A DNA stretch of 34,790 bases. Origin: Alphaproteobacteria bacterium (GTDB taxonomy: Bacteria > Pseudomonadota > Alphaproteobacteria > SMXP01). The stretch lies in contig JAJFIO010000030.1 in assembly GCA_021774915.1 (NCBI GenBank), positions 1-34,790 on the forward strand, written 5' to 3'. A program made the position numbers and the translations under genes. Below the pieces are notes generated by a model. It worked only from the letters and a program-made list of their open reading frames with translations, did no database searches and was not told the DNA's origin. Below, one piece after another: positions 1 through 20,708 of this stretch. Positions within the stretch are counted from its first letter, which is position 1. Each line of letters begins with the position of its first letter.

Positions 1-1134
1 TTTCAGGCCTTCCTGGCCGATGAGTATGACATCAGAGCGGAAAGCAGCTCAAAAGCCTGGGCGACCCAATATGATGTGCCGGCGGTTGAAGACGGGCGTA
101 TCAAAAAACGCTTTATTGAAGACAAGCAGCCCGCACCCATGCAGGGGTTTTTCTTTAATACACGGGCAGAGAAGTTTAAAGACCGCCGCGTGCGTGAAGC
201 CATCGGCCTGGCTTTTAATTTTGAATGGGCGAATAAATATCTCTTTTATGGTCAGTACAAGCGCCTCACCAGCTATTTCGATAATTCCGAATTGGCGGCA
301 AAGGGCCTGCCCACAGTAGAAGAATTTGAATTACTGGCGCCTTTCAAGGATCAACTCCCGCCCGAGATCTTTTCTCAAACCTTTCAACCGCCACAAACAG
401 ACGGCACGGGCAAATACCGCAAAAACCTGGTGAAAGCCCTTGGCCTTCTGAAGCAAGCCGGGTGGTCGCTCCAAAACGGCGTGATGACCCACGAGAAAAC
501 CGGTGAGGTGCTGACCATCGAGTTTTTGCTGGTGCAGCCGGCATTCGAGCGTGTGGTGCAGCCCTTCTTGCGGGATTTGGAGCGGATTGGTATTTATGGC
601 TCCATCCGCATTGTCGATGTCTCGCAATACCTCAACCGGCGCGATAAGTTCGATTTTGAGATGATCGTTCATTCCGTCCGTCAATCTCTGTCGCCAGGCA
701 ATGAACAACGCGAATATTGGGCTTCAGAAACGGCCGACCAAGAGGGCGGGCGCAATGTCGCAGGAATCCATGATCCGGTGATTGACGCCCTGATCGACAA
801 AATCATCTTTGCAAAAGATCGCGCCGCACTGCTCACTGCTACTCATGCGCTCGACCGGGCCTTGCTGTGGGGCCATTATGTGGTGCCGCAATGGTATACA
901 GGCGGGGATCGCTACGCCTATTGGGATCGATTTGACTTTCCGCCCAAGCCGCCCCCTTATAATGCCGGCATTCCAAGCACGTGGTGGTCTCGCGAAGCGG
1001 CTCACGATCTCAACGACACCGCACCTCAGGACATGACGGCGCAGGACGAGACCGGCGACGACACCCAGCCGGACCTGCTGCGCGGCGGGCTTGATCTGGA
1101 AGCCGGGGATGATATGGGGGAGGAATTGCCATGA
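1..1134 (+). CDS. Extracellular solute-binding protein family 5 (YejA-like), 5'-truncated at window edge
   Basis: Frame +1 is open from base 1 (FQAFLADEYDIRAESSSKAWATQYDVPAVEDGR...). It aligns by eye along its length with the downstream SBP (WATQYDxPAVxDGR, REA(I/L)GLAF(N/D)F(E/D)W, VVPQW/YWVPQW, STWWSR/DTWWVK). Stop at 1134 overlaps the next ATG. Confidence 0.88.
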   Translation, partial: FQAFLADEYDIRAESSSKAWATQYDVPAVEDGRIKKRFIEDKQPAPMQGFFFNTRAEKFKDRRVREAIGLAFNFEWANKYLFYGQYKRLTSYFDNSELAAKGLPTVEEFELLAPFKDQLPPEIFSQTFQPPQTDGTGKYRKNLVKALGLLKQAGWSLQNGVMTHEKTGEVLTIEFLLVQPAFERVVQPFLRDLERIGIYGSIRIVDVSQYLNRRDKFDFEMIVHSVRQSLSPGNEQREYWASETADQEGGRNVAGIHDPVIDALIDKIIFAKDRAALLTATHALDRALLWGHYVVPQWYTGGDRYAYWDRFDFPPKPPPYNAGIPSTWWSREAAHDLNDTAPQDMTAQDETGDDTQPDLLRGGLDLEAGDDMGEELP

Positions 1135-3029
1135 CCATGCGGCGCACTTTTTGGCAACGCACAGGGGGAGCCATGTTGAGCGCCCTCCTGCTGGTGTCCA
1201 CCGGGGCCAGCGCTGAAGAACAAGGCGAACCCACCACCATTACCCACGGTCTGTCGGCCTTTGGAGACCTGAAATATCCACTTAATTTTTCTCATTTTGA
1301 GTACAGTAATCCGCAAGCCCCGAAAGGCGGCACGCTGTCTCTCACCGGCATCATCGGCCGCACCACCTATGACAGTCTCAACGCCTATATCCTGAAAGGC
1401 GATGGCGCGGAGGGTATAATACTGCTCCCCGTGGATGGTTTGAGTCTCATCTTTGACACGTTGATGGTACGCGCCGGGGACGCGCCGGACGCACTGTATG
1501 GTCTAGTGGCCAGAGAGGCGGAAATCCCTGCGGATAAGTCCTGGATCATCTTCCGGTTGCGCGAGGAAGCACAGTTCCATGACGGCACGCCATTGAGCGC
1601 CGAGGATATCTCCTTCTCCTTCACACTCCTGATGGAAAAAGGTCACCCGCAATACCGGCAGGCCTTAGCCGATGTCGAGGAGGTCGAGATTCTCGGTCCC
1701 CATGAGATCAAATTTATTTTTGCGCAAGGCGCCGAGACGCGCGATTTGCCGCTGGCCGTGGCGGAATTGCCGATTTTTTCCAAAGCCTATTACACCGTCC
1801 ATGCTTTTGATGAGAGCACCATGGAGCCGCCTTTGGGCAGCGGGCCTTATAAAATCGGCAATCTGGAGCAGGGACGTTTTATCGAATACACCCGCGTCAC
1901 CGATTACTGGGCCAAAGACCTGCCGGTTAACCGAGGGCGGTGGAATTTCGATACCATTCGCTATGATTACTTCCGTGACCGGACGATCGCCTTTCAGGCG
2001 TTCACGGGCCACGAATATGATTTAAGGGAAGAATTTACCTCGCGGGTCTGGGCGACTCAGTATGATTTTCCCGCCGTTATGGACGGCCGCGTGAAACGCT
2101 CTTTAATCAAAGACGAAACGCCCTCGGGCTTTCAAGGCTATTATTACAATATGCGCCGGCCGCAATTTGCCGATGCACGCGTGCGCGAAGCCTTAGGTCT
2201 GGCCTTTGATTTTGATTGGACCAACAAGAACCTTTTCTATGGCGCCTATCAGCGCACCACCAGTTTCTTTCAAGGCGCATCTGAATTGATGGCGACCGGC
2301 GCGCCTACCGGTTTGGAGTTGGCGGCGCTGGAGCCTTATCGCGCGGGACTGCCGCCTGCACTCTTCACCCGCGCCTATACGCCGCCCCAATCCGACGGCT
2401 CAGGGCGGATCCGGTCAAGCTTGCAACAAGCGCGACAGCTCTTTGCGCAAGCAGGCTGGCGGGCGGAAGAGGGCAAGCTTGTTGATGAGAACGGCGCGCC
2501 CTTTAAAATCGAATTTCTTATTTTTTCGCCAAGCTCTGAACGGATCATCGCCGCCTATATTAAAAATCTGACCCTTCTGGGCATAGACGCTGAGATCCGC
2601 CTCGTCGATCCATCACAATATATACGCCGTATGGAAGAGTTTGATTTTGACGTCATCACCGCACGTTATACACAGAGCAACACGCCAGGCCTTGGGTTGC
2701 GCAGTTTTTTTAGTACGGCGGCCGGCAAAATACCGGGAACACAAAATCTTGCGGGCATCAAAGACCCTGTCGTGGATGCTCTCATCGAAGCTGTCGTCGC
2801 GGCCTCCTCCCGCGATGAACTGAACGCACGCGTGCGCGCCCTTGACCGGGTGTTACGCGAAGGCCATTACTGGGTACCGCAATGGACCAGCGGCAAATTT
2901 CATCTCGCTTTCTGGGATAAATTCGCCTGGCCCGAGATCAAACCCAAATATCAACGCGGCATTATTGACACGTGGTGGGTAAAAGATGTGAACGCGCCGC
3001 AAAATACCGGTGACGAGGAGCAGGAATAA
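1131..3029 (+). CDS. yejA: Extracellular solute-binding protein family 5, YejA-like periplasmic peptide-binding protein
   Basis: 632 aa ORF with N-terminal signal peptide (MLSALLLVSTGASAEEQ) and SBP_bac_5 features (GTLSLTG, FHDGTPLSAEDISFSF, GSGPYKIG). Followed directly by permease genes. Confidence 0.9.
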   Translation: MTMRRTFWQRTGGAMLSALLLVSTGASAEEQGEPTTITHGLSAFGDLKYPLNFSHFEYSNPQAPKGGTLSLTGIIGRTTYDSLNAYILKGDGAEGIILLPVDGLSLIFDTLMVRAGDAPDALYGLVAREAEIPADKSWIIFRLREEAQFHDGTPLSAEDISFSFTLLMEKGHPQYRQALADVEEVEILGPHEIKFIFAQGAETRDLPLAVAELPIFSKAYYTVHAFDESTMEPPLGSGPYKIGNLEQGRFIEYTRVTDYWAKDLPVNRGRWNFDTIRYDYFRDRTIAFQAFTGHEYDLREEFTSRVWATQYDFPAVMDGRVKRSLIKDETPSGFQGYYYNMRRPQFADARVREALGLAFDFDWTNKNLFYGAYQRTTSFFQGASELMATGAPTGLELAALEPYRAGLPPALFTRAYTPPQSDGSGRIRSSLQQARQLFAQAGWRAEEGKLVDENGAPFKIEFLIFSPSSERIIAAYIKNLTLLGIDAEIRLVDPSQYIRRMEEFDFDVITARYTQSNTPGLGLRSFFSTAAGKIPGTQNLAGIKDPVVDALIEAVVAASSRDELNARVRALDRVLREGHYWVPQWTSGKFHLAFWDKFAWPEIKPKYQRGIIDTWWVKDVNAPQNTGDEEQE

Positions 3030-3035
3030 ACCCAA

Positions 3036-4148
3036 ATGACGGCTTACATTATCCGGCGCCTCCTGCTCATGATCCCGACCATATTCGGGATCATGCTGGT
3101 GAGTTTCACAGTGATCCAGTTTGCCCCCGGCGGCCCGGTGGAGCGCATCATCGCGCAAGTTCAGGGTTTGGACGTATCGGCCACCGCCCGCATCAGCGGC
3201 TCGGCTTCGGGCGATTTCAGTGCTGCGCGGAGCCAAGTGTTTCGCGGAGACAGCACCGTGAACAGTAAATACCGGGGCGCCCAGGGGCTCGATCCTGAAT
3301 TCATCGCCGAGCTGGAACGGCAATTTGGATTCGATAAACCCGTGCATGAACGCTTCTTCATCATGATAAAGAATTTCATCCAATTTGATTTTGGCATGAG
3401 TTATTTTCGCTCTGTCAAAGTGATCGATCTTATTCTGGAAAAAATGCCGGTCTCCATATCTCTTGGTCTTTGGACGACACTGCTCGCCTATCTGATTTCC
3501 ATTCCTTTAGGCATACGTAAAGCGGTTCACGATGGCAGTGCATTTGATGTCTGGAGCAGCGGCGTGATTGTTGTCGGCTATGCCATTCCGGGTTTTCTGC
3601 TGGCGGTTCTGCTGATCGTTCTGTTTTCGGGCGGCACGTATTTTGACTGGTTCCCTTTGCGGGGTCTGACGTCAGACAATTGGGAGGAACTTGGGCTATT
3701 CGCAAAAGTTAAAGACTATTTCTGGCATATGGCCTTGCCCCTCATATCACTCAGTATCAGCGGATTCGCTACAACAACGTTGCTGACCAAGAACTCCTTC
3801 CTTGACGAAATTAAAAAGCAATATGTCACCACCGCGCGCGCCAAGGGTTTATCCGAGCGGCGCGTTCTTTACGGGCATGTGTTTCGCAACGCCATGCTGA
3901 TCGTTGTCGCTGGATTCCCCGCCGCGTTTTTAGGCGTTTTTTTCACGGGCGTCCTCCTCATAGAAACCATCTTTTCTTTAGACGGCTTAGGGCTTTTGGG
4001 TTTTGAGTCTCTGGTCAATCGCGATTATCCGGTGATTTTTGGTACACTCTTTATCTTCTCTCTGGCCGGTCTCATCATCGCGCTTATCAGTGACCTGACA
4101 TATACATTGATCGATCCGCGTATCGATTTCGAAACGCGGGATGTTTAA
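3036..4148 (+). CDS. yejB: ABC transporter permease, YejB-like
   Basis: 370 aa; MTAYIIRRLLLMIPTIFGIMLVSFTVIQFAPGGPVE is typical of DppB/YejB permeases. The EAA loop TTARAKGLSERRVLYGHVFRNAM is present, along with the YejB-type periplasmic insertion. Confidence 0.92.
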   Translation: MTAYIIRRLLLMIPTIFGIMLVSFTVIQFAPGGPVERIIAQVQGLDVSATARISGSASGDFSAARSQVFRGDSTVNSKYRGAQGLDPEFIAELERQFGFDKPVHERFFIMIKNFIQFDFGMSYFRSVKVIDLILEKMPVSISLGLWTTLLAYLISIPLGIRKAVHDGSAFDVWSSGVIVVGYAIPGFLLAVLLIVLFSGGTYFDWFPLRGLTSDNWEELGLFAKVKDYFWHMALPLISLSISGFATTTLLTKNSFLDEIKKQYVTTARAKGLSERRVLYGHVFRNAMLIVVAGFPAAFLGVFFTGVLLIETIFSLDGLGLLGFESLVNRDYPVIFGTLFIFSLAGLIIALISDLTYTLIDPRIDFETRDV

Positions 4149-4151
4149 GCC

Positions 4152-5255
4152 GTGACGCAAAAAGAAATGGCATCAGATGAAGATATCGCAAACGGCGCCC
4201 ATGGACTTGCGGATGCCCCGGAACGCCGGAGGCTTCATATCAGCCCCTTGAACCAGCGGCGTCTTCATAATTTCAAGAAGAACAAGCGCGGCGTATGGTC
4301 TTTATGGATTTTTCTGATCCTGTTTTTTATCTCTCTCTTTGCCGAGTTCATCGCCAATGACAAACCTCTGGTCGTTTCCTTTGAGGGGGGTTTTTATTTT
4401 CCTGTTTTCGCGGCATATCCGGAAACGGCATTTGGCGGCGACTTCCCGACAGAAGCGGATTATCGCGATCCCTTTGTTCAAGAATTGATCGAGAAAGAAG
4501 GGGGATGGGTTCTTTGGCCCCCTATTCACTATAGCTATCAGACCATCAACCTTGATCCGCCGACGCCAGCCCCGTCTCCTCCCAGTTCTGAGAACTGGTT
4601 GGGCACGGATGATCAAAGCCGCGATGTGCTGGCCCGCTTGATCTATGGGTTCAGGATATCCGTTCTGTTCGGTCTGACATTGACTATATTCTCCACCTTT
4701 GTCGGCGTTGCGGCCGGCGCCGTGCAGGGCTATTTCGGCGGCTGGGTAGATCTGCTGTTTCAACGTTTTATTGAAATCTGGACGAGCATTCCTCAGCTTT
4801 ATCTTATCATTATCATTGCAGCGGTGATCGAACCAAATTTCTGGATTCTTCTATTCATACTCCTGTTGTTCAGCTGGGTGGCGCTAGTCGGTGTGGTCAG
4901 GGCGGAATTTTTGAGGGCGCGGAATTTCGAATATGTCATGGCGGCGCGCGCCATGGGAGTGGGCAACACCAAGATCATGGTGCGGCATCTCTTGCCCAAC
5001 GCCATGGTGGCAACCCTCACCTTCATACCGTTTATTCTGAACGGGTCCATCACCACATTAACGTCTCTGGATTTTCTGGGCTTTGGTCTGCCCCCGGGAT
5101 CCCCGTCACTGGGCGAGTTGCTCAAGCAGGGCAAGGACAATCTTCAGGCGCCCTGGCTGGGCGTAACGGCGTTTATGACCATTGCAGTGATGCTGAGCCT
5201 GCTGGTGTTCGTTGGCGAAGCGGTGCGTGATGCCTTCGACCCGAGAAAGAACTAA
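4152..5255 (+). CDS. yejE: ABC transporter permease, YejE-like
   Basis: 367 aa with GTG start; SPLNQRRLHNFKKNKRGVWSLWIF..., ENWLGTDDQSRDVLARLIYGFRISVLFG, EAA loop AARAMGVGNTKIMVRHLLPNAM. Confidence 0.92.
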   Translation: MTQKEMASDEDIANGAHGLADAPERRRLHISPLNQRRLHNFKKNKRGVWSLWIFLILFFISLFAEFIANDKPLVVSFEGGFYFPVFAAYPETAFGGDFPTEADYRDPFVQELIEKEGGWVLWPPIHYSYQTINLDPPTPAPSPPSSENWLGTDDQSRDVLARLIYGFRISVLFGLTLTIFSTFVGVAAGAVQGYFGGWVDLLFQRFIEIWTSIPQLYLIIIIAAVIEPNFWILLFILLLFSWVALVGVVRAEFLRARNFEYVMAARAMGVGNTKIMVRHLLPNAMVATLTFIPFILNGSITTLTSLDFLGFGLPPGSPSLGELLKQGKDNLQAPWLGVTAFMTIAVMLSLLVFVGEAVRDAFDPRKN

Positions 5256-5258
5256 GCC

Positions 5259-6872
5259 ATGCACGAACCGCTTATTGACGTTCAGGATCTCTCCGTGAGT
5301 TTTTCTGTTGACGGCAAGGTCACGCAAGCCGTTCACGGCATATCTTTTTATATCAACAAAGGGGAAACGGTCGCGCTGGTGGGAGAATCGGGTTCCGGAA
5401 AATCGGTCAGCGCCTTGTCGATCATGAGGTTACTCCCCTACCCGCAAGCGTCTCACCCCTCGGGGCGCATAAAATTTCAAAAACAGGATTTGATCACGGC
5501 CTCCGAACAGAACATGCGCGGCGTACGGGGCAATCACATCTCTATGGTTTTTCAAGAACCCATGAGTTCGCTCAACCCCCTACACACCATCGAGCAACAG
5601 GTGAGCGAAATACTGCAAATCCATCAGGGTTTGGGAAAACAGGATGCTCGGTCACGGGCATTGGACTTACTCGATAAAGTCGGGCTGGACGAGCCTGAAA
5701 AACGCCTCGGCGCTTACCCGCACCAATTATCCGGCGGACAGCGCCAACGTGTGATGATCGCCATGGCGCTGGCCAATAAGCCGGATTTGCTGATCGCGGA
5801 TGAACCAACCACGGCACTTGATGTCACCGTACAAGCACAAATTCTAAACCTCCTGAAAGAATTACAAGCCGAGATGGGCATGGCCATTCTTCTCATCACC
5901 CATGATCTCGCCGTGGTGCGCAAAATGGCTGATCGGGTTTGCGTGATGACACAAGGCCAGATCGTTGAGCGGGGGGATACGGAAGAAGTTTTTCAAGCCC
6001 CGGCACACGCCTATACACAACATCTCATCGCCGCCGAGCCGAAGGGCGAGCCGCCGACAAGCGACCCGCAGGCATCAGTGGTTATTTCCACCGAGCATAT
6101 GCGTGTCTGGTTCCCCATCAAAAAGGGTGTTCTGCGCCGAACGGTAGATTACGTCAAAGCGGTGGACGATGTCAGTTTTGAACTGCGCGCCGGAGAAACC
6201 TTAGGAATTGTCGGTGAATCGGGTTCGGGTAAAACCACCTTGGGCTTGGGGCTGCTGCGTTTGATTTCGGCCCAAGGCCACATCACCTTTGACGACAAAA
6301 ACATTGAAACATACAAGGCGAAAGACATGCGCCCGTTGCGCCGGGAAATGCAGATCGTCTTTCAAGATCCGTTTGGCTCATTAAGCCCGCGTCTGCCTGT
6401 GGGAGACATTGTGATGGAAGGGCTCACCGTTCATGGGGACGCGCTCAAAGGCATTGAGCGCCGCAGCATGATCGGCGACGTTCTGGAAGAAGTAGGCCTG
6501 ACCTCTGACATGCAGGATCGGTATCCTCATGAATTTTCCGGTGGCCAACGCCAGCGCATTGCCATTGCACGCGCCTTGATCCTCAAACCCAAATTCATCA
6601 TGCTGGATGAACCCACAAGCGCGCTCGACATGTCGGTGCAGGCGCAGATTGTCGATCTGCTGCGTGATTTGCAGCAACGCCATCACTTGGCATATTTGTT
6701 TATCAGCCACGACCTTAAGGTTGTGCGGGCCATGGCCAATTATGTTCTGGTCATGAAGGCCGGAAAAGTGGTGGAACAAGGACCCGCCGCGAAAATATTC
6801 GATCACCCCGAAACAGATTACACGCGCGCCTTGATGGCCGCCGCCTTCGATCTGGAAACGGCATCGCAATAA
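5259..6872 (+). CDS. yejF: ABC transporter ATP-binding protein with two nucleotide-binding domains, YejF-like
   Basis: 537 aa with two Walker A ([16 protein letters not shown]), two signature motifs ([16 protein letters not shown]) and two Walker B ([15 protein letters not shown]). Confidence 0.95.
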
Positions 6873-7008
6873 ATCAGCCCCTATTTATGATGATCTTTGA
6901 CCCGCATCATTTTGTGTTTATTGAGGGGTTGGTGATATTTATGCCTAGATTTGTTGACCCTGGCACGCTCCGCTACTAAAACTACAACCAGCGACAGCCA
7001 GTGAGGGT

Positions 7009-8328
7009 ATGGCCATGATAGTAATTTTTAGCGGCTTACCGGGCTCAGGCAAAACCACCCGGCTGATCACTAAGGCGAAAGAAAACAAAGCGTCCGGCAT
7101 TCCGGTTTGTCTGTTCCTGAACGGAGAGAACCCGGATTTGGCGCGTCGGCCCCATGTCAAACCGGGGGGTTATATGGGCTGCCGCACAAAAGGTCTGGGC
7201 CTTCGTATTGACCATACGGCAGGGACTAGGGAGACCTCTGAGCTTTTGCTCGAAATGAAAAAGGGCAGTTGTGCGGTCTTCGATGAAGCTCAATATTATG
7301 ACACAGACATAGTTAATGGCTGGGTACAGGCCAGTAAAAATGGCATTACTGTCCTTGTGGGCTCCCCTTCTCAAGCCCAACTCAAGGCACTTAATAAATT
7401 TGCAAAACATTCTCCGTCATCTGTTCAGTTTGAGAAACTAGATACAACCTGTTCTTCTTGCGAAAAAGTTGCAACGCGCGTCACTTATAATGGTGATTAT
7501 CGCTTCCCTATTCATCTTTGTGAGGACTGCCTAAAAATGAAGCATGATACCGATATCAAAAATTTGCTGGACGACATGAAAGCCGGGAATCCATTTCCCA
7601 ATGAACTAAAAACTTACCAACCCTTTTATGACATCCCTATGGATAAGTGGGAACTTGTACGGGGGGATTCCCTGTCGCGATACCAAATCATGGAAGCGGC
7701 TATCTCATCCTATGAGCCGAATGCGCCTGATGTAATCACACAACCCCAACATTATACCTATCTGGATCTGGGATGCTGTTCAGGATTCTTTTGTGACGCC
7801 ATGGCAAACAAGGGATACCATGCGACGGGTGTTGACGTTACCAAGCACTTTATTGAATGGGCTACACGGCTTGCTGAAATCAAAGGCCAACCAATTACCT
7901 ATGTAAAAGAAGATGCGCTGAAATTTATATCTGAAATCGATACGACCTACGATATCACTTCAACCTTCGCGACAGTACAATGGGTGATGGTGCAAAAAGG
8001 CTATGAGTCAGGCATGGAATGCTTTCGTCATCTATTTCGCAAAACACGCCACATCTGTGTTGTCGAGATGGGATACACGACAGAAGATATTTACAAAGAC
8101 AAGATTGAAGGATTGGAAGGCGACATTGATCGGGACTGGGTGCTGAATTTAATGGAGACAGAAGGGGATTTCGAAACCATTGCCTTGGTGGAAAGTGGAT
8201 CCAATGGAATTTGGCGCGATTTGTTTATCGGATTTAAAAAAGAGACGGAAATCAATCTTGAAAACAAGCTATTTAAGATCAACATGATGTCAAAAGCCAA
8301 GAAGCTGGCGAAAAAGGTTTTAGGGTAA
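7009..8328 (+). CDS. Putative fusion: thymidine kinase 1-like P-loop/zinc-ribbon domain plus class I SAM-dependent methyltransferase
   Basis: 439 aa. N-term Walker A FSGLPGSGKTT; TK1-like VFDEAQYYD; G-x-TVLVGS followed by FEKLDTTCSSCEKVATRVTY ... YRFPIHLCEDC (CxxC/CxxC). C-term motif I YLDLGCCSGFFCDAMANKGYHATGVDVT. The start may instead be the second ATG at 7015, which is better spaced from GAGGG. Confidence 0.8.
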   Translation: MAMIVIFSGLPGSGKTTRLITKAKENKASGIPVCLFLNGENPDLARRPHVKPGGYMGCRTKGLGLRIDHTAGTRETSELLLEMKKGSCAVFDEAQYYDTDIVNGWVQASKNGITVLVGSPSQAQLKALNKFAKHSPSSVQFEKLDTTCSSCEKVATRVTYNGDYRFPIHLCEDCLKMKHDTDIKNLLDDMKAGNPFPNELKTYQPFYDIPMDKWELVRGDSLSRYQIMEAAISSYEPNAPDVITQPQHYTYLDLGCCSGFFCDAMANKGYHATGVDVTKHFIEWATRLAEIKGQPITYVKEDALKFISEIDTTYDITSTFATVQWVMVQKGYESGMECFRHLFRKTRHICVVEMGYTTEDIYKDKIEGLEGDIDRDWVLNLMETEGDFETIALVESGSNGIWRDLFIGFKKETEINLENKLFKINMMSKAKKLAKKVLG

Positions 8329-8385: not shown

Positions 8386-8994
8386 TCAACTCATCTCATT
8401 TTTGATGGTGCGCCGTTCCTTTAGAGTTTTTGTCAGGGCCTTTTGAGGCTCAACGCCTAAACGCACGCGGGCAATGGGTAAGAGTACGGAGTTTTCAAAA
8501 GCGAGATGTTGACGTATATGCTCAGCAAAGGTGCGAACGCGTCTTGCACCGTCTGGGTTCAATGCCTGCCCACCCAGAAGGCCTTTAAGCAGATCGACTA
8601 CCTTTTCGAAAACCTCTTTATCGTGACTGTGCTCAGCGAGCAACCGCTCTATCAGCGCATCGATATTATCTTCCGGCGGGCAGTGCTGGCGTAGTAGAGG
8701 AAAGAGACCAAGCTCTTCATCATCAAAATGAGGCATGAAGTCGATTTCCAGGAAAGCCACTAATTCTTCGACACCCTCGCGATCATGTTCACCATCCGCA
8801 ATTCTCATAAGGAGTGCGCTGGCCTGACGTTGGCGACCGTGGTCCGCAAAAATAAAATCTAGTGGCGTATCGAGCATCGCTGAGGGAATTGGCCTGAGGC
8901 GCCATAGATCATGGGTATCAACGCCAGCATCAGCCGGTCCCTTTTCTGACTGCAAATCGAAATCAGTTTTTCCAGCGCTGCCCATTTCGATCAT
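8386..8994 (-). CDS. Hemerythrin-like (HHE) domain protein
   Basis: LDFIFADHGRQRQ...FMPHFDDEELGLFPLLRQ...LLAEHSHDKEVFE...FAEHIRQHLAFENSVLLPIA carries the His/Glu ligand pattern of HHE domains. ATG at 8994 with upstream GGGAG; the ORF track uses TTG at 8997. Confidence 0.82.
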   Translation of the reverse strand: MIEMGSAGKTDFDLQSEKGPADAGVDTHDLWRLRPIPSAMLDTPLDFIFADHGRQRQASALLMRIADGEHDREGVEELVAFLEIDFMPHFDDEELGLFPLLRQHCPPEDNIDALIERLLAEHSHDKEVFEKVVDLLKGLLGGQALNPDGARRVRTFAEHIRQHLAFENSVLLPIARVRLGVEPQKALTKTLKERRTIKNEMS

Positions 8995-9003
8995 CAACGC
9001 TCC

Positions 9004-10266
9004 CTAATATTGGAACCTCAAAGACGCCCAAATCAGATTACGGTCGGCGGGACCTGATCCGCCGCCATCATAAAGGGCGCCCTTGATCTCCGCCGACCAA
9101 TATTTGTTAATTTTCACTGCCATCCCCGCATCAAATTCTTCACCAAGATCAAGCGACCCCAAATCGGACTGAAAGTCATGGTAGGTGGCGAAGAGTTTGA
9201 TGATTGTTCCAAAAGGGGCTTCTTTCCAGTCATAGCTGATCGTGCCATACAGATCCTCAAGCCCCGTGGCAGGCGTCGCCAGAAAGACGTCGGCGAAACC
9301 CTGAAATTTATGAAGCGTGGCAAGCGGTGTTGAGAACGCGATCGTTCCGTTGCCCCCAAGGCGTTCATAGCCGAGCTTGCCGGTGAAGGGAGAAACGCTC
9401 AGTGATGCCTCTCCGTGCACATAGGATTCTCTGTAATTCGTGGGGTTCGCCGCAGAATCGGCTTGTGTCGCAAATTCAGCAATAACACCTAGCTTGATCC
9501 CCGCCTCATCATCAAGGGTGAACGTATTTTCATAACGCGCGCCCCAGGTGGCGGATGAGAGCGCCGGCGCCTCTTTGAGATCAAGCATGACGCCATACCC
9601 TTTGAGCGTGCCGAATTCGCCGCCGTCGAACGCCGCAGAAACCACATGACTGTCGCTGTCGAATTCACCCAGGGGATGATTGTCACCGAAAACCCGGTGA
9701 ACCCGGCTGATATAAAGATAGTCGAGCGTAACGCGTTCAATCAGCTTGGTTGACACACGCGCGGCATCAAAGGTTTGCTGGTTTTGGCGAAAATCAACCG
9801 CGCCGACAAAACGATGATTATTGAGATTGAAACGCTGGCGGCCAATCGTGATCGCCGTTTTGTCGATGCCGGTGAACGTGACCTGCGCCCGGTTGATCTC
9901 CGTCGCGTCCGGGTCGGCAATGACCGGAAACTGCGTGCGGCCGTTGGTCGTGCTGTTGAAGTGATCATTGCCTATCGAGGCGACGTTTTCGAACTCAACG
10001 AGAACTTTGAAATTATAGAATTCGCCTGTTTCGAAGCCGAACCGCGTGCGCACCGTATTGGCGGTGGCGTCTTTAGTAAAGCCCGCCTGATCCTTTGTTT
10101 CAAAGCGGTAGCGCACATCAATCAACGGCTTGCCTTTTTTAATCGCCTCAATGATGGGGCCGTCATTGCTGCTGGGCAAACCCTCTTCAGCAAACACAGG
10201 TTGGATCGCCGCAGTAGCGAGACATGACACGGCTAGGAAAATTATCGATTTCATCACTTGTTCCAT
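9004..10266 (-). CDS. Porin-like / beta-barrel outer-membrane protein (alginate-export-like)
   Basis: 420 aa with signal peptide (SIIFLAVSCLATAAIQPVFAEEG). Repeated amphipathic strands, IDVRYRFETKDQ, AVDFRQNQQTFDAARV, C-terminal aromatic LIWASLRFQY typical of OM barrels. Confidence 0.7.
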   Translation of the reverse strand: MEQVMKSIIFLAVSCLATAAIQPVFAEEGLPSSNDGPIIEAIKKGKPLIDVRYRFETKDQAGFTKDATANTVRTRFGFETGEFYNFKVLVEFENVASIGNDHFNSTTNGRTQFPVIADPDATEINRAQVTFTGIDKTAITIGRQRFNLNNHRFVGAVDFRQNQQTFDAARVSTKLIERVTLDYLYISRVHRVFGDNHPLGEFDSDSHVVSAAFDGGEFGTLKGYGVMLDLKEAPALSSATWGARYENTFTLDDEAGIKLGVIAEFATQADSAANPTNYRESYVHGEASLSVSPFTGKLGYERLGGNGTIAFSTPLATLHKFQGFADVFLATPATGLEDLYGTISYDWKEAPFGTIIKLFATYHDFQSDLGSLDLGEEFDAGMAVKINKYWSAEIKGALYDGGGSGPADRNLIWASLRFQY

Positions 10267-10287
10267 TTCTTAAAGGATGCCTGCTTT

Positions 10288-11010
10288 TTATTTTACTGGC
10301 GCGACACTTGATTGATTGCCAGAGTGTTGTTTGCGCGTGCGCACGATCTGATAGCCAGGCCGGCCAATATACCAAACTGGCGCGCTGAGCATGTGCACGA
10401 GCCGGGTAAAGGGAAAGACGAGAAAGATCGTGAGTCCGAGGAAGAGATGCGCCTTAAAAATCGGATGTACATCAGCGACAAGAAGCGCAGCGCCGCCACG
10501 GAAAGTCACTATTCTTTGCGCCCATTCCATGAACTTGACCATCTCTTGACCATCAAGATGGTTCAATGAAACGAAGATCGTTAAAAGACCGAGGCTGAGC
10601 TGCGCAAACAGAAGCAATAAAATCGCCGTGTCGCCAAAGCTTGATGTCGCCCAGATGCGCTGATCGAAAAGGCGGCGGTGAATGAGAAGAACAATACCGA
10701 TAAAACAAAGGATTCCAGCAAACCCGCCGGCGACGATAGCCAAAATCTGTTTGGCGCCGTGGGAAATGCCGAGCGCATCAAAGACCCAGATTGGCGTGAG
10801 CAGGCCGCCGAGGTGACCCAGAAAGATGATCAGAATCCCAACGTGGAAGAGGACGCTCCCGAACATCAATTGTCTGCGGCGCAACAATTGGCTTGATCCG
10901 CTGCGCCAGGAATATTGTCCGTGCTCGAAACGCAAGATGCTGCCGATGATGCATACGGTGAGGCAAAGATAGGGATAGTATCCAAAGATGAATTGATTGA
11001 GATAGTCCAT
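10288..11010 (-). CDS. narI: Respiratory nitrate reductase gamma subunit (cytochrome b)
   Basis: MDYLNQFIFGYYPYLCLTVCIIGSILRFEHGQYSWRSGSSQLL...; multi-TM; HPIFKAHLFLGLTIFLVFPFTRLVHMLSAP. Start refined to ATG at 11010, overlapping the narJ stop (TAATG). Confidence 0.95.
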   Translation of the reverse strand: MDYLNQFIFGYYPYLCLTVCIIGSILRFEHGQYSWRSGSSQLLRRRQLMFGSVLFHVGILIIFLGHLGGLLTPIWVFDALGISHGAKQILAIVAGGFAGILCFIGIVLLIHRRLFDQRIWATSSFGDTAILLLLFAQLSLGLLTIFVSLNHLDGQEMVKFMEWAQRIVTFRGGAALLVADVHPIFKAHLFLGLTIFLVFPFTRLVHMLSAPVWYIGRPGYQIVRTRKQHSGNQSSVAPVK

Positions 11011-11723
11011 TATGACTGCCCTCCTCCCTGCGCCGCATGTCGCGCAGCCGCATCGCGCGGATGCATGCGATTCAGCATCTGGTCGACTTTCGGGCACCCT
11101 TCCTCGCCGGGACCAAAGGTCACCGCCTGGTCTTCCCAGGCGGCGTCGAGGGCCTGGAAATCATTCGGGTCGTCATCGGGCGCCTTGCGGAGTTCATCAA
11201 GTTCCGCCTGTGCTGGCTTGCCACCAGCGATGGCCTCCAGAACCCGAAACAAGGCGGCATAGGACGTCTTGCGCTTTGCGAGACGCTCTTTCAGGGTCAC
11301 GATGACGCTGAGAGGCTCGGCAAGAAGCGTGCGCGCCTCAATCGCGCTCCGCGTTGAAAGATATTCGAGAAACAGCGGCAGAAAGTCCGGCAACTCGCTC
11401 GCCTCTATGTCGAGGCCGCTTTCAGCGTAAAGGGTCTTAAGGTCCACCAGTGCCTGACCCCGGTCCCGCGACTCGCCATGGACATGCTCAAACAGGTGGA
11501 GCGATAAAGACCGTGTCCGATCGAACAAAAAGACATAGCGTTCCTGAAGCTCGAAAATATCAAGCTTTTTAAGGTCGCCAATGAGTGGCTCTATCTTGCG
11601 TAAGATCTTTTCCGGAGCCAGCGCCTCTTTGCGTATCATGTAATATATTTCGTCAGCAGATTCTTTGAGTTCGGCTGTCGGATAAGAAAGAAGCGCGCTA
11701 AGGGCCTTGTATGTGTTGGTCAT
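11010..11723 (-). CDS. narJ: Nitrate reductase molybdenum cofactor assembly chaperone
   Basis: 237 aa; MTNTYKALSALLSYPTAEL..., ERYVFLFDRTRSLSLHLFEHVHGESRDRGQALVDL is characteristic of NarJ. Confidence 0.95.
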   Translation of the reverse strand: MTNTYKALSALLSYPTAELKESADEIYYMIRKEALAPEKILRKIEPLIGDLKKLDIFELQERYVFLFDRTRSLSLHLFEHVHGESRDRGQALVDLKTLYAESGLDIEASELPDFLPLFLEYLSTRSAIEARTLLAEPLSVIVTLKERLAKRKTSYAALFRVLEAIAGGKPAQAELDELRKAPDDDPNDFQALDAAWEDQAVTFGPGEEGCPKVDQMLNRMHPRDAAARHAAQGGGQS

Positions 11724-11738
11724 GTTGCTCGCATCCTG

Positions 11739-13256
11739 TTAAGCGTTTTCTTTTCCGGGATTTTTGGCGAAAAGGCCCGTCCACTCGACGGCGTGCTTCG
11801 GCTCGCCGCAGCCATCACCAAAGCTGAAACCGCAATCACCGCGCAGGTCGTAGGCGTTCTCCGCGTATTCCCGGTGCGAAGTGGGAATAACAAAGCGGTC
11901 TTCATAATTGGCGATCGCCATCAGACGATACATCTCATCGACCTGATCCGGCGTCATGCCGACTTTACCAGGGATCGTCACGTCCTCTGCGCCCTCATAG
12001 GATTTCGAGCGCATATAGGCGCGCATCGCAATTAGCTTTTCGAGCGCCTTGGCCACCGGTTCTTCATCCCCCGCCGTCAGCAGGTTCGCGAGATATTTGA
12101 GCGGGATACGAAGTTCGCGGACATTCGGCATGGCGCCTTTTTCACCAAACGCGCCCGCCTCCGCCATCGACTGAATGGGTGACAGGGGCGGCACATACCA
12201 GACCATGGGGAGGGTGCGGTATTCCGGATGCAACGGAAAGGCAATTTTCCACTCCATCGCCATTTTCCAAATTGGCGACTTTTGCGCCGCCTCGAGCCAT
12301 GCTTCAGGAATGCCATCCGCGCGCGCCTGAGCCTGCACTTGTCTGTCATTCGGATCGAGAAAGATATCAAGATGGCTCTGGTAAAGATCGGTTTCTTTCT
12401 CTGCGCTCGCCGCCTCACCAATACGGTCGGCGTCGTAAAGAACCACACCGAGATAGCGTATCCGCCCAACGCAGGTTTCCGAACAAACCGTTGGCTGTCC
12501 GGATTCAAGGCGCGGATAGCACAAGATGCACTTTTCTGATTTTCCTGTGCTCCAGTTGTAATAAATCTTCTTGTAAGGACAACCAGACACGCACATGCGC
12601 CAGCCGCGGCACTTGTCCTGGTCGATCAGCACGACGCCGTCTTCTTCACGCTTATAAATGGCCCCGGACGGACACACAGCCACGCAAGACGGATTGAGGC
12701 AATGCTCGCACAGGCGTGGCAGATACATCATGAAGGTGTTTTCAAACTGGCCGTAAATTTCCTTTTCTACCGTTTCAAAATTATAGTCTTTCGAGCGCTT
12801 GGAAAATTCGCCACCGAGAATTTCCTCCCAATTAGGGCCTTTGTTTATTTTCTCCATACGGTCGCCGGTAATCAACGAACGCGGGCGAGCGGTCGGCACG
12901 GCTTTCGATTCAGGCGCATTTTGCAGGTGTTCGTAGTCGAACGTGAAAGGTTCATAATAGTCGTCTATCTCCGGCAGATCGGGATTGGCGAAGATTTTGG
13001 CAAGGACAGACATCTTGCCGCCCATTTTCGGTTGCAACTTGCCATTTGTCTTGCGCTCCCAACCGCCATTCCAGCGGGCTTGGTTTTCCCAGTCGTCCGG
13101 ATAGCCAATGCCGGGTTTTGTTTCGACATTATTGAACCAGGCGTATTCAACACCCTCGCGGTTGGTCCAGACATTCTTGCAGGTGACAGAACATGTGTGG
13201 CACCCGATGCATTTGTCGAGATTGAGCACCATCGAAATTTGCGCACGGATCTTCAT
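11739..13256 (-). CDS. narH: Respiratory nitrate reductase beta subunit (Fe-S)
   Basis: 505 aa; MKIRAQISMVLNLDKCIGCHTCSVTCKNVWTNREG, CEHCLNPSCVAVCPSGA, CRGWRMCVSGCPYKK (the NarH-type Cys-to-Trp variant). Confidence 0.97.
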   Translation of the reverse strand: MKIRAQISMVLNLDKCIGCHTCSVTCKNVWTNREGVEYAWFNNVETKPGIGYPDDWENQARWNGGWERKTNGKLQPKMGGKMSVLAKIFANPDLPEIDDYYEPFTFDYEHLQNAPESKAVPTARPRSLITGDRMEKINKGPNWEEILGGEFSKRSKDYNFETVEKEIYGQFENTFMMYLPRLCEHCLNPSCVAVCPSGAIYKREEDGVVLIDQDKCRGWRMCVSGCPYKKIYYNWSTGKSEKCILCYPRLESGQPTVCSETCVGRIRYLGVVLYDADRIGEAASAEKETDLYQSHLDIFLDPNDRQVQAQARADGIPEAWLEAAQKSPIWKMAMEWKIAFPLHPEYRTLPMVWYVPPLSPIQSMAEAGAFGEKGAMPNVRELRIPLKYLANLLTAGDEEPVAKALEKLIAMRAYMRSKSYEGAEDVTIPGKVGMTPDQVDEMYRLMAIANYEDRFVIPTSHREYAENAYDLRGDCGFSFGDGCGEPKHAVEWTGLFAKNPGKENA

Positions 13257-16200
13257 GTCACCGCCTCTTGAGTTTTAGCAGGGCCTTCAAGCCAATCGAC
13301 TTTGTCCATTTTACGGACAATGACGAATTCATCCCGGTTCGAACCCACCGTGCCGTAATAATTGAAGCCGTAAGATTGCTGAGCGTAACCGCCGATCATA
13401 TGCGTGGGTTTCAAGACCGTGCGCGTCACAGAATTGTGGATGCCACCGCGTTTGCCGGTCACTTCAGAGCCCGGTACGTTCACGATCTTTTCCTGGGCGT
13501 GATACATCATGATCATGCCCGGCTTGATCCGCTGGGAAACCACGGCGCGCGCCGTCAAGGCGCCATTCGCGTTATACGCCTCAACCCAGTCATTATCCTC
13601 AATGCCTGCTAGCGCCGCATCGTCCTCGCTGAGCCAGACGATCGGTCCCCCGCGCGAAAGGGTCAGCATCAAAAGGTTATCCGTATAGGTCGAGTGTATG
13701 CCCCATTTCTGGTGCGGCGTGATGAAGTTGAGGACAATTTGCTTGTTGCCGTTTTCTTTTCCGTCGATCACCGGCGCTATCGTTTTAGTATCAATAGGCG
13801 GACGGTACACAACGAGGGTCTCGCCAAACGCGCGCATCCACAAATGATCCTGATAAAGCTGTTGCCGCCCGGTGAGGGTGCGCCACGGAATCAATTCGTG
13901 CACATTGGTGTAGCCCGCATTGTAACAGACCTTTTCCGATTCGATGCCCGACCAGGTCGGCGAGGAGATGATTTTGCGTGGCTGGGCGACGATATCCCGG
14001 AACCTTATTTTTTCGTCTTCTTTTGACGCCGCCAGATGCGCATGTTCACGCCCCGTTAGTTTGGAGAGCGCATTCCAAGCTTTCACCGCAACCTCGCCAT
14101 TGGTTTCCGGCGCCAGCATCAAGATCACTTCCGTCGCATCAATATCACTGTCGATACGGGGCATGCCTTTGGTGGGGCCCTCTTCCGTCACGACGCCGTT
14201 CAGCGCCTTTAAGTGTTCGACCTCATGCTCGGTATTCCACGCAATGCCTTTGCCGCCATTGCCGATCTTGGTCATCAGCGGCCCCAGCGCGGTGAAGCGC
14301 TTGTATAGATTGGGATAGTCCCGCTCGACCACAGCAACCGCCGGCATGGTCTTACCGGGGATGGGTTCAACCTCCCCCCGCTTCCAGTCTTTGACGTCAA
14401 ACGGTTGGCTGAGCTCCCCCGGCGTGTCGTGCAGGGTTGGCGTCAGCACAACGTCCTTCTCGACGCCAAGCACTTCGGGGGCAATTTCGGAAAATGACTT
14501 GGCAATGCCTTTGAAAATATCCCAGTCGCTTTTGCATTCCCAAAGTGGATCGACCGCGCTCGATAGCGGGTGGATAAAGGGGTGCATATCCGACGTATTG
14601 AGATCATTCTTTTCGTACCAGGTTGCCGTCGGCAGGGCGATATCGGAGTAAACGCACGTCGTTGACATGCGAAAATCAATCGACACCAGAAGATCGAGCT
14701 TTCCTTCCGGCGCTTGGCTATGCCAGATAACCTCTTCCGGCTTTTGCCCGCTCGTCTCCCCAAGATCTTTGCCCTGCACGCCATGGGAGGTCCCGAGCAG
14801 GTGTTTCAAAAAATATTCATGGCCTTTGCCGGACGACCCGAGCAGGTTTGAGCGCCAGACGAACAGATTGCGCGGCCAGTTCGCCGGGTCATCCGGGTCT
14901 TCGCAGGACATTTTGAGGCTTCCGGATTTCAGCTCACGGGCGACATAATCTTTCGCCTCCAAACCCGCCGCCGCCGCGTCTTTCGAGATCTCAAGAGGAT
15001 TGCGTTGAAGCTGGGGCGCTGAAGGGAGCCACCCCATGCGTTCCGCACGTGCATTGAAGTCGATGAGGCTGCCGCTCCAATTTCCATCAGGCGCGACCGG
15101 TGACAGGATTTCATCAATCTCAAGCGTTTCATAACGCCACTGATCCGAGTGCGCGTAGAAAAACGAGGTTGAATTCATCTGACGCGGCGGACGTGCCCAA
15201 TCAAGACCAAAAGCGAGTGGCAGCCAGCCTGTTTGCGGGCGCAGTTTTTCCTGGCCCACATAATGCGACCAGCCGCCCCCCGATTGACCGACGCATCCGC
15301 ACATCACCAGCATGTTGATGATGCCGCGGTAGTTCATATCCATATGGTACCAGTGATTAAGCCCGGCTCCGAGGATAACCATGGATTTGCCGCGGGTCTT
15401 CTCCGCATTGTCCGCAAAGCCGCGGGCGACGGCGATCACCTTGTCACGCGGCACGCCAGTGATTTTTTCCTGCCAGGCGGGTGTATAAGGAATGTCTTCG
15501 TCGAATGATTTGGCTGCCCAGTCGCCGCCAAGGCCACGACCAAGGCCGTAATTGGCGATGAGCAGATCAAAAACCGTGGCGACGAGAGTTTCTCCCTCGT
15601 TCAATTGAAGGCGCTTGACCGGCACCCGCCGCTCAAGCACATCCGGGTGATCGGTGCCGGTGAAATGGTCATGCTCACGATTGCCGAAATAGGGAAACGC
15701 CACATCAGCCGCGTCGTCGCTTCTGTCGATCAGTGATATGACAAGATCCGTTTCGGCGCCGTCGGCGGCTTTTTCTTCCAGATTCCACTTGCCCTGTTCA
15801 CCCCAGCGGAAACCGATGGAACCACGCGGGCAAACCACGCGTCCCGCTTTTTCGTCAAAAGCGACGGTTTTCCAGTCAGGGTTATTTTCTTCGTTGAGGG
15901 CATCGTTAAAATCTGACGCGCGCAACAGCCGATCCGGAATCAGGCGGCCGTCTTTTTTCACCAGCCGCACCAGCATCGGCATGTCGGTATATTTCCGCGC
16001 ATAGTCCTGGAAATAGTCTACCTGCCGGTCGAGATAAAACTCGCGCAAGATGACATGACCGAACGCCATGGCGAGGGCGGCGTCCGTACCCTGTTTTGGC
16101 GACAGCCACATATCGCCGAATTTCGACGCCTCGCTGTAATCAGGTGAGATGACCACGCTTTTCGCACCCTTGTAACGAGCCTCCGTATAGAAATGGGCAT

Positions 16201-16987
16201 CAGGGGTTCGCGTCTGCGGCACATTCGAGCCCCAGAGCAGCAAGAAGCCGGAATTATACCAGTCCGCGCTTTCCGGCACGTCCGTCTGTTCGCCCCAGGT
16301 CATAGGGCTCGCCGGGGGCAGGTCGCAATACCAATCGTAAAAGCTCATGCAGGTCCCGCCGAGAAGCGACAGATAGCGCGAGCCCGCCGCGTAAGAGACC
16401 ATAGACATCGCTGGAATGGGCGAAAACCCGATAACGCGGTCCGGTCCGTGTTTTTTCGCGGTGTAGGCGTTGGCCGAAGCGATGATTTCGTTCACTTCAG
16501 TCCAATCAGCGCGGACAAAACCGCCATGGCCGCGCACCTTTACATAGGAAGCGCGCGTGGACGGGTTTTCAACGATCGACGCCCACGCCGCTACCGGCTC
16601 AAGAATCGCTCGCGCCGCGCGCCAGGCTTTCAGCAGGCGGCTGCGAACAAGCGGATGCTTCAATCGATTGCCGCTGTAAAGATACCAGCTATAGCTTGCC
16701 CCGCGCGAGCAACCCCGCGGTTCGTGATTCGGTAGATCTGGCCGCGTGCGAGGGTAATCAGTCTGCTGCGTTTCCCAAGTGACAATCCCGCCTTTGACAT
16801 AGATCTTCCAGCTGCATGAGCCAGTACAATTGACGCCATGGGTTGAGCGTACGATTTTATCATGCTGCCAGCGCTTGCGGTAAGCGTCCTCCCAAGTGCG
16901 GTCTTCTTTCGTCAGGATACCGTGTCCCTCTGAGAATTCGCTGACGCGGTTCTTGAAATAAGATAGTCGGTTAAGAATATGGCTCAT
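13253..16987 (-). CDS. narG: Respiratory nitrate reductase alpha subunit (molybdopterin)
   Basis: 1244 aa; THGVNCTGSCSWKIYVKGGIVTWETQQTDYPRTRPDLPNHEPRGC; 4-bp overlap with narH. Confidence 0.97.
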   Translation of the reverse strand: MSHILNRLSYFKNRVSEFSEGHGILTKEDRTWEDAYRKRWQHDKIVRSTHGVNCTGSCSWKIYVKGGIVTWETQQTDYPRTRPDLPNHEPRGCSRGASYSWYLYSGNRLKHPLVRSRLLKAWRAARAILEPVAAWASIVENPSTRASYVKVRGHGGFVRADWTEVNEIIASANAYTAKKHGPDRVIGFSPIPAMSMVSYAAGSRYLSLLGGTCMSFYDWYCDLPPASPMTWGEQTDVPESADWYNSGFLLLWGSNVPQTRTPDAHFYTEARYKGAKSVVISPDYSEASKFGDMWLSPKQGTDAALAMAFGHVILREFYLDRQVDYFQDYARKYTDMPMLVRLVKKDGRLIPDRLLRASDFNDALNEENNPDWKTVAFDEKAGRVVCPRGSIGFRWGEQGKWNLEEKAADGAETDLVISLIDRSDDAADVAFPYFGNREHDHFTGTDHPDVLERRVPVKRLQLNEGETLVATVFDLLIANYGLGRGLGGDWAAKSFDEDIPYTPAWQEKITGVPRDKVIAVARGFADNAEKTRGKSMVILGAGLNHWYHMDMNYRGIINMLVMCGCVGQSGGGWSHYVGQEKLRPQTGWLPLAFGLDWARPPRQMNSTSFFYAHSDQWRYETLEIDEILSPVAPDGNWSGSLIDFNARAERMGWLPSAPQLQRNPLEISKDAAAAGLEAKDYVARELKSGSLKMSCEDPDDPANWPRNLFVWRSNLLGSSGKGHEYFLKHLLGTSHGVQGKDLGETSGQKPEEVIWHSQAPEGKLDLLVSIDFRMSTTCVYSDIALPTATWYEKNDLNTSDMHPFIHPLSSAVDPLWECKSDWDIFKGIAKSFSEIAPEVLGVEKDVVLTPTLHDTPGELSQPFDVKDWKRGEVEPIPGKTMPAVAVVERDYPNLYKRFTALGPLMTKIGNGGKGIAWNTEHEVEHLKALNGVVTEEGPTKGMPRIDSDIDATEVILMLAPETNGEVAVKAWNALSKLTGREHAHLAASKEDEKIRFRDIVAQPRKIISSPTWSGIESEKVCYNAGYTNVHELIPWRTLTGRQQLYQDHLWMRAFGETLVVYRPPIDTKTIAPVIDGKENGNKQIVLNFITPHQKWGIHSTYTDNLLMLTLSRGGPIVWLSEDDAALAGIEDNDWVEAYNANGALTARAVVSQRIKPGMIMMYHAQEKIVNVPGSEVTGKRGGIHNSVTRTVLKPTHMIGGYAQQSYGFNYYGTVGSNRDEFVIVRKMDKVDWLEGPAKTQEAVT

Positions 16988-19740: not shown

Positions 19741-19890
19741 CTTTTGCCCCGTGTGCTGATCGAATCGAATTGAGATGCGAACACGATGGTCTGGAATGCA
19801 TTTTCATTAAATCAGGCGTTTGGTCACAGTTTGCTTGATTGGCATTTTGCATTCCGTATTTTGAGGATCGGATGTCCGTCAATGATAATT

Positions 19891-19904
19891 TTGACGCCCG
19901 TCAT
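19891..19904. promoter_or_regulatory. Candidate FNR/NNR-family box TTGAC-GCCC-GTCAT
   Basis: Read directly: ttgacgcccgtcat, 4 of 5 arms symmetrical. Lies on the narK-proximal side of the divergent intergenic region. Confidence 0.5.
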
Positions 19905-19924
19905 GAATAAGGCGAGAATTATCC

Positions 19925-19938
19925 TTGACATTTATCAA
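19925..19938. promoter_or_regulatory. Candidate FNR-family box TTGAC-ATTT-ATCAA
   Basis: Read directly: ttgacatttatcaa, matching TTGAY-N4-ATCAA. A TATAAT hexamer sits at 19966-19971, upstream of the Crp/Fnr gene. Confidence 0.65.
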
Positions 19939-19991
19939 GAGGCGCGTGCAAAAATATCAAACTAATATAATGAAGCCATAACAAAAGGGAG

Positions 19992-20708
19992 GTGGGATTG
20001 CGCGACGAAGATAGTCAAATCGTTCGCAAACTGGATCTTTTTCGCAATATGGACGAAGCGCGTTTCGAGGGACTTCTCAACGCCGCCTTTCTGCAACGCT
20101 TTCCCGAGCGTGTCGTCTTGATCCAGGAAGGCGAACCTTCAGATTTTCTGCATATTGTCATTGACGGAAGCGTTGAGCTTTTCGCGACATTGGCTCATCG
20201 CGAAACCACGCTGACGGTATTGTCCCCAGTTTCGACGTTTATCCTGGCGGCCGTGCTGAAAGACGCGATCTATTTGATGTCGGCGCGCACGCGCACACCG
20301 TCGCGTATTTTGATGATTCCATCGGAAAACGTTCGAAAGGCCATGGCGGAGGATGCCGCTTTCGCCCGCTCGATCGTGAATGAGCTTGCAACATGTTACC
20401 GGGGCGTCGTGCGCAATCAGAAGAATCTCAAACTGCGCACCGGCGTTGAGCGCCTTGCGAGTTACCTAGCCCATCAACATGTCCGCCAAGGAGCGAATGG
20501 CCGGTTGACCCTTCCCATTGACAAGCGAACGCTGGCTTCGATGTTGGGAATGACGCCCGAGAATTTGTCGCGCGCATTCGCCGCGTTACGCCGGAATGGT
20601 GTCACCGTGGCTGGTCCCGACATCATGATCGATTCCGAGGAGACCTTGATTGAACTGGCGCGTCACGCGCCATTAATCGATAATTTCCCAGAACCCCACC
20701 AAGATTAA
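19992..20708 (+). CDS. Crp/Fnr-family transcriptional regulator, NarR/NNR-like
   Basis: 238 aa; cNMP-fold N-terminus (VLIQEGEPSDFLHIVIDGSVELF) and C-terminal HTH (TLASMLGMTPENLSRAFAALRR) with FNR-like ExxSR. Only one Cys, so no FNR [4Fe-4S] motif. GTG at 19992, or TTG at 19998, which is better spaced from AAGGGAGG. Confidence 0.88.
   Translation: MGLRDEDSQIVRKLDLFRNMDEARFEGLLNAAFLQRFPERVVLIQEGEPSDFLHIVIDGSVELFATLAHRETTLTVLSPVSTFILAAVLKDAIYLMSARTRTPSRILMIPSENVRKAMAEDAAFARSIVNELATCYRGVVRNQKNLKLRTGVERLASYLAHQHVRQGANGRLTLPIDKRTLASMLGMTPENLSRAFAALRRNGVTVAGPDIMIDSEETLIELARHAPLIDNFPEPHQD

Follow-up and report, generated by a model that had tools for sequence, protein, structure and literature searches.

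The locus and its reading frame

The window, a stretch of 34,790 nucleotides, is a contig of an alphaproteobacterial genome of 3.0 Mb, assembled in 324 contigs with an estimated completeness of 92%. Near its start (76-6872) lies a yej operon that encodes two solute-binding proteins, two permeases and a double ATPase; the first of the binding-protein genes is short or truncated where the contig begins. Directly behind yejF, after a gap of 136 bp and codirectional with yejABEF, we found one uninterrupted reading frame of 439 aa (Table 1). Profiles of thymidine kinase (TK) and of methyltransferases each match their own half of this frame separately. An earlier reading, made from the sequence alone, had quoted a set of motifs in this protein, and we located them at residues 9-17 (GLPGSGKTT), 91-98 (FDEAQYYD), 115-119 (VLVGS), 148-151 (CSSC), 171-174 (CEDC) and 252-261 (LDLGCCSGFF), followed by the C-terminal tail MMSKAKKLAKKVLG.

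Table 1. Features of the gene behind yejF, in window coordinates
Feature	Position	Strand	Basis or remark
Whole ORF	7009..8328	+	439 aa; likely true start 7015 (M3), giving 437 aa
N-domain, TK1-like P-loop and zinc ribbon, residues ~3-192	7015..7584	+	Pfam TK, PHROG 592, NF003296, hhalign
Walker A GLPGSGKT, residues 9-16	7033..7056	+	Sequence; the Met typical of TK P-loops (xMx[SA]GK) is absent
D92-E93-A94-Q95, Walker B / TK catalytic Glu position	7282..7293	+	Aligned with DEAQF of TKs
CxxC...CxxC zinc-ribbon motif, C148 C151 C171 C174	7450..7530	+	19-residue spacer, too short for the TK lasso
Class I SAM methyltransferase domain, residues ~210-415	7636..8256	+	Pfam, NCBIfam, PDB phmmer
Methyltransferase motif I LDLGCCSGFF	7762-7791	+	Sequence
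C-terminal tail LENKLFKINMMSKAKKLAKKVLG	8257..8325	+	Basic, moderately amphipathic
Promoter-like element TTGACC-17-TAAAAC	6954..6982	+	Weak; TTGACG-17-TAAAAC in the sister genome

An orthologue with 83% identity is present in a sister metagenome-assembled genome (G001; its gene pieces are those seen in the Alphaproteobacteria metagenome-assembled genome OFTM124), the one congeneric genome in the comparison, where it also stands behind yejF. There the gene falls on two contig ends: a single open frame (L004) covers residues 2-370, and residues 369-439 lie on another contig (L005). An artefact of assembly or of a frameshift is an unlikely source of the fusion, since L004 has the P-loop domain together with methyltransferase motif I in one frame. 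The first ATG (M1) reads AAG in the sister, and the ATG of M3 is kept in both genomes, preceded by a G-rich Shine-Dalgarno-like stretch. Because M1 is not conserved, M3 is the likelier start. Between the two genomes, dN/dS of the gene is ~0.07, similar to that of neighbouring yejF, and the methyltransferase half is under constraint at least equal to that of the N-terminal half. The reading frame is a real gene under strong purifying selection, and we propose that it encodes a cytosolic two-domain enzyme.

The N-terminal domain resembles type II thymidine kinases

For residues 1-200, Pfam TK was the best family, with 26 bits against a cut-off of 20.6 over residues 12-158; the whole protein also exceeded this cut-off with the same model (PF00265, 23.2 bits). 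The top matches of the N-terminal half in PHROGs and NCBIfam were PHROG 592 and NF003296, both thymidine kinase, the latter with a score far under the NCBIfam cut-off (24 vs. 183 bits). Weaker Pfam matches were Viral_helicase1 (21.9 bits, cut-off 21), then AAA_14 and AAA_30. The Pfam TK score alone is not decisive, because PilT ATPases in whole-genome searches match the model equally well (E 6e-5), likewise exceeding its cut-off, and shuffled sequences that keep Walker A come close. The best of 2000 such shuffles reached 10.6 bits, compared with 12.9 bits for the real domain, in a single-sequence test with a model built from 19 TK rows (18 distinct).

We then compared profiles with profiles (hhalign). 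The N-domain matched TK at 96.9% (E 2e-10) over residues 1-158, in an alignment that extends through the first CxxC pair. Control families gave 89% (RecD/AAA_30, E 2e-6), 71% (PilT), 70% (Zot) and 17% (ABC), the PilT and Zot sets being thin, with three and two sequences, respectively. When Walker A was removed, the TK match stayed at 93.5% and the best control, RecD, reached 16%. A search of 177,635 PDB sequences with the N-domain profile gave two matches at E<=10, both thymidine kinases and neither significant singly (E 0.83 and 1.4). The similarity to TK is thus above chance: it is the top family in three libraries and lies far above four control P-loop families. A P-loop family other than TK and lacking a zinc ribbon, the result that the sequence-only reading had named as speaking against it, was not the best match in the sequence tests. 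To judge by these profiles, residues 1-158 look genuinely TK1-like, and the N-terminal half is likely to descend from a TK1-like (type II thymidine kinase) P-loop domain.

Structure prediction added little. Two AlphaFold runs with two sequences each gave a pLDDT of 38.0 with a pTM of 0.27 and a pLDDT of 44.5 with a pTM of 0.48; thymidine kinases were left out of the alignment, as padding it with them would make a TK fold circular. There being no confident model, the assignment of a TK-like fold rests on sequence profiles. The Foldseek lists of both low-confidence models are rich in TK1 structures, with no match of any kind at E<=0.001 and with bad superpositions, and clamp-loader chains top the second list.

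Kept and lost parts of the kinase

The N-domain and type II TKs (PF00265) have the same order of elements: Walker A, DE(A)Q, a strand, KLxTxCxxC and a second CxxC. In the Leishmania TK, C140, C143, C173 and C176 bind the zinc, E85 is the catalytic base, and the lasso over thymidine is a long loop that links strand 10 to strand 11 (PMC4433323). The catalytic-base position of TKs corresponds to E93 in our alignment. The sister orthologue has the same Walker A, the same DE pair and the same four Cys. The N-domain differs from type II TKs by the absence of the lasso, of the P-loop Met and of the thymine-pocket aromatics (DF....F, after strand 5), which are missing or replaced, and by its fusion to a methyltransferase. 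The spacer between its Cys pairs is 19 residues, compared with 28-34 in the 17 distinct TKs measurable, and the GEQVxIGG segment conserved in TKs is missing. The sequence-only reading had seen a TK1-like domain with a P-loop, a DE pair and a zinc/lasso region. The P-loop, the DE pair and the zinc ribbon hold up in the family searches, the profile controls and the sister orthologue; the lasso does not, and that region is a zinc ribbon only. As aligned, the N-domain keeps the NTP-binding and predicted zinc parts and has lost the thymidine-clamping lasso and the thymine-pocket residues, which makes it unlikely to be a thymidine kinase proper.

The methyltransferase domain and the C-terminal tail

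That the C-terminal half carries a class I SAM methyltransferase, as had been read from motif I, was borne out by Methyltransf_11 (PF08241, 39.8 bits, cut-off 21.2) and Methyltransf_25 (PF13649, 37.9 bits, cut-off 27). With these families it shares motif I, an acidic end of strand 2 (D276) and the Rossmann order. NCBIfam gave partial matches to UbiG and to the mycofactocin-oligosaccharide methyltransferase MftM, both far under their cut-offs, and the best PDB match by phmmer was 6uak (E 2e-5). LahSB was a further partial match; all named subfamilies stay far under cut-off, and there is no close relative. By these matches, this half is a generic class I SAM methyltransferase, probably of the small-molecule-like kind. 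A DNA amino-methyltransferase (N6A/N4C) was considered and rejected, the protein having no motif IV [DNS]PP[YFW] (NPPY/DPPY). We also rejected the MADS defence system, suggested by a PADLOC match to mad2: just 65 residues around motif I match, and no defence genes are nearby.

In a search with the C-terminal third, the last 120 residues had no match outside the genus except a chance match to a membrane protein. The tail is basic and amphipathic, as noted earlier, if moderately so; the helical moment at its end, 0.50-0.54, is not the highest of the protein. Its last 23 residues are identical in both genomes. This character and the full conservation are suggestive only.

Genomic context

The gene follows yejF directly in both genomes (the gap is ~65 bp in the sister), and what comes after it differs. 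It had been described as monocistronic-looking. This agrees with a promoter-like element that both genomes have in front of the gene and that a consensus promoter scan did not report; the element is a weak candidate for the promoter of the gene. As the gene shares its direction with yejABEF, co-transcription with yejABEF is possible. Among the neighbours there are no nucleotide-metabolism genes, as the sequence-only reading had stated, and no defence genes. Six relatives have a long enough stretch behind yejF for comparison, G004 from the same family and G005, G007, G013, G015 and G020 from the same class; at that place, tblastn found neither the gene nor its downstream neighbours in the sister, which encode LysR, GST and PNPOx. 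The gene has a GC3 of 0.47 in the window and of 0.48 in the sister, compared with ~0.60-0.66 for most neighbours; because it is low in both genomes, we infer that the gene may have been acquired before the two lineages split.

Between the gene and LysR, the window has a nitrate-respiration block of ~12.3 kb (8386-20708) with hemerythrin, an Opr-type porin, narI, further nar genes and a Crp-type regulator. LysR follows directly in the sister, where the block is absent at that place (L005), by either insertion here or loss there. The adjoining hemerythrin gene (8386-8997) has an equally low GC3 (0.47), unlike most other neighbours. Further on (22478-24577), a protein of 699 aa joins a PNPOx-like part to FAD/NAD-binding and 2Fe-2S domains; in the sister, the corresponding frame (L005:1896-2984) has 362 aa and matches the first part only.

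No second TK-family match was found in the 92%-complete genome of the window, which does have a match to thymidylate synthase. This match (L120, G000:C66:11943-12365) lies in an open frame of 143 codons and covers positions 1-142 of 266; in the sister, the match is full length.

Distribution of the fusion

A search of 395 Alphaproteobacteria genomes with the N-terminal half returned this genus and three further matches (E 2e-4 to 0.009), which we regard as chance, one of them having internal stops. Pfam TK matches were found in 158 of the 399 genomes sampled from the phylum, so that absence of TK is common. Most TKs in this survey sit in open frames of ~190-300 codons; weak matches in frames of ~350-410 codons were PilT-type in all three read, a reading that left out two longer frames, of 835 codons in G583 and 426 codons in G607. 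With the whole protein, its halves and conserved stretches as queries, the fusion was not found in phages, plasmids or viral contigs, and besides generic methyltransferases these searches returned nothing but weak matches to TK or Zot and matches by chance. Matches in Aeromonas jumbo phages were set aside as chance, the proteins having neither the P-loop nor the Cys pairs. The neighbourhoods of the plasmid methyltransferases offered no substrate clue. Within the genomes, phages, plasmids and viral contigs searched, the fusion is restricted to one genus of uncultured alphaproteobacteria. Distant versions could exist, as the scan of genome contigs used exact short peptides and detects close relatives only. 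A literature search that covered few subscription journals found no paper describing a TK-methyltransferase fusion. The description of the gene as an orphan was nearly right: it has one orthologue, in the same genus and at the same place.

Possible functions

We tentatively favour a two-step kinase/methyltransferase that acts on one non-thymidine acceptor. The N-domain, presumed to be active as a kinase, would phosphorylate the acceptor, and the methyltransferase would then methylate the phosphorylated product or a nearby group, provided that the two domains share a substrate. No neighbour gene names such a substrate. A similar logic is known from WbdD, the chain terminator of the E. coli O9a O-antigen, which adds a phosphate to the end of the glycan and then a methyl group to that phosphate (PMC3482155). 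Like our protein, WbdD has a kinase and a class I methyltransferase in one chain, a likeness of logic only. Its kinase is unrelated to ours: it is eukaryotic-protein-kinase-like and follows the methyltransferase in the chain, whereas ours is an N-terminal P-loop domain, and Pfam finds no protein-kinase match in the protein; WbdD is encoded in a glycan gene neighbourhood, and there is none at this locus. It is conceivable, if improbable, that the fusion represents a new enzyme class, in which a lasso-free TK1-derived kinase phosphorylates a new acceptor and the fused methyltransferase methylates it, possibly forming a methyl-phosphate cap as WbdD does.

The main rival, which we find somewhat doubtful, is an NTP-sensing regulator: a degenerate TK-like domain would bind or hydrolyse NTP and switch the methyltransferase, with no phosphorylation of a substrate. 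Loss of the acceptor pocket would fit such a pure sensor about equally well, for the thymidine-binding elements are gone and Walker A, the DE pair and the zinc ribbon are conserved; constraint on the methyltransferase half, at least as strong as on the N-terminal half, also agrees with it. The Glu kept at the catalytic-base position of TKs argues for a kinase, although a Glu serves at this position in Walker B ATPases as well. It seems quite improbable that the protein is a true nucleoside kinase whose acceptor pocket was rebuilt, for salvage or for making a modified nucleotide, with the methyltransferase acting on the nucleotide. Its TK1 ancestry and the lack of a second TK-family match in the genome are in its favour, but a 19-residue spacer is too short for a lasso, other residues stand in place of the P-loop Met and of the aromatics that follow strand 5, and nucleotide-metabolism neighbours are lacking. 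Moreover, the genome has a thymidylate-synthase match, and genomes of the phylum commonly have no TK match.

Could the N-terminal half be a non-TK P-loop ATPase, RecD/SF1-like or other, whose similarity to TK is convergence of the P-loop motif? The weaker AAA_30 and Viral_helicase1 matches, the 89% of the RecD-type profile and the clamp-loader chains at the head of the second Foldseek list point that way. We consider this very unlikely, given that the RecD match collapses without Walker A when that of TK persists and that the alignment with TK takes in the first CxxC pair. The least probable reading makes the protein a helper of the adjacent YejABEF peptide transporter that modifies, for example, an imported peptide or peptidyl-nucleotide for detoxification or use. 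Yej takes up microcin C and other antimicrobial peptides (PMC10924461, PMC10128002), and the gene stands directly behind yejF in both genomes, although the downstream genes differ. However, it is known from two genomes of one genus only, the six other yejF-bearing relatives do not have it there, the promoter-like element may uncouple it from yej, and the protein has no peptide-modifying hallmark. For the roles in defence or nucleotide synthesis that the sequence-only reading had also entertained, we found nothing in favour here.

The protein is of modest size and testable, but only two metagenome genomes, both from one genus, are known to carry it. In every type II TK measured, at least 28 residues separate the Cys pairs; in the N-domain, 19 do. 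A conserved, lasso-free TK derivative joined to a methyltransferase suggests that the TK fold may be re-aimed at another acceptor or at NTP sensing.
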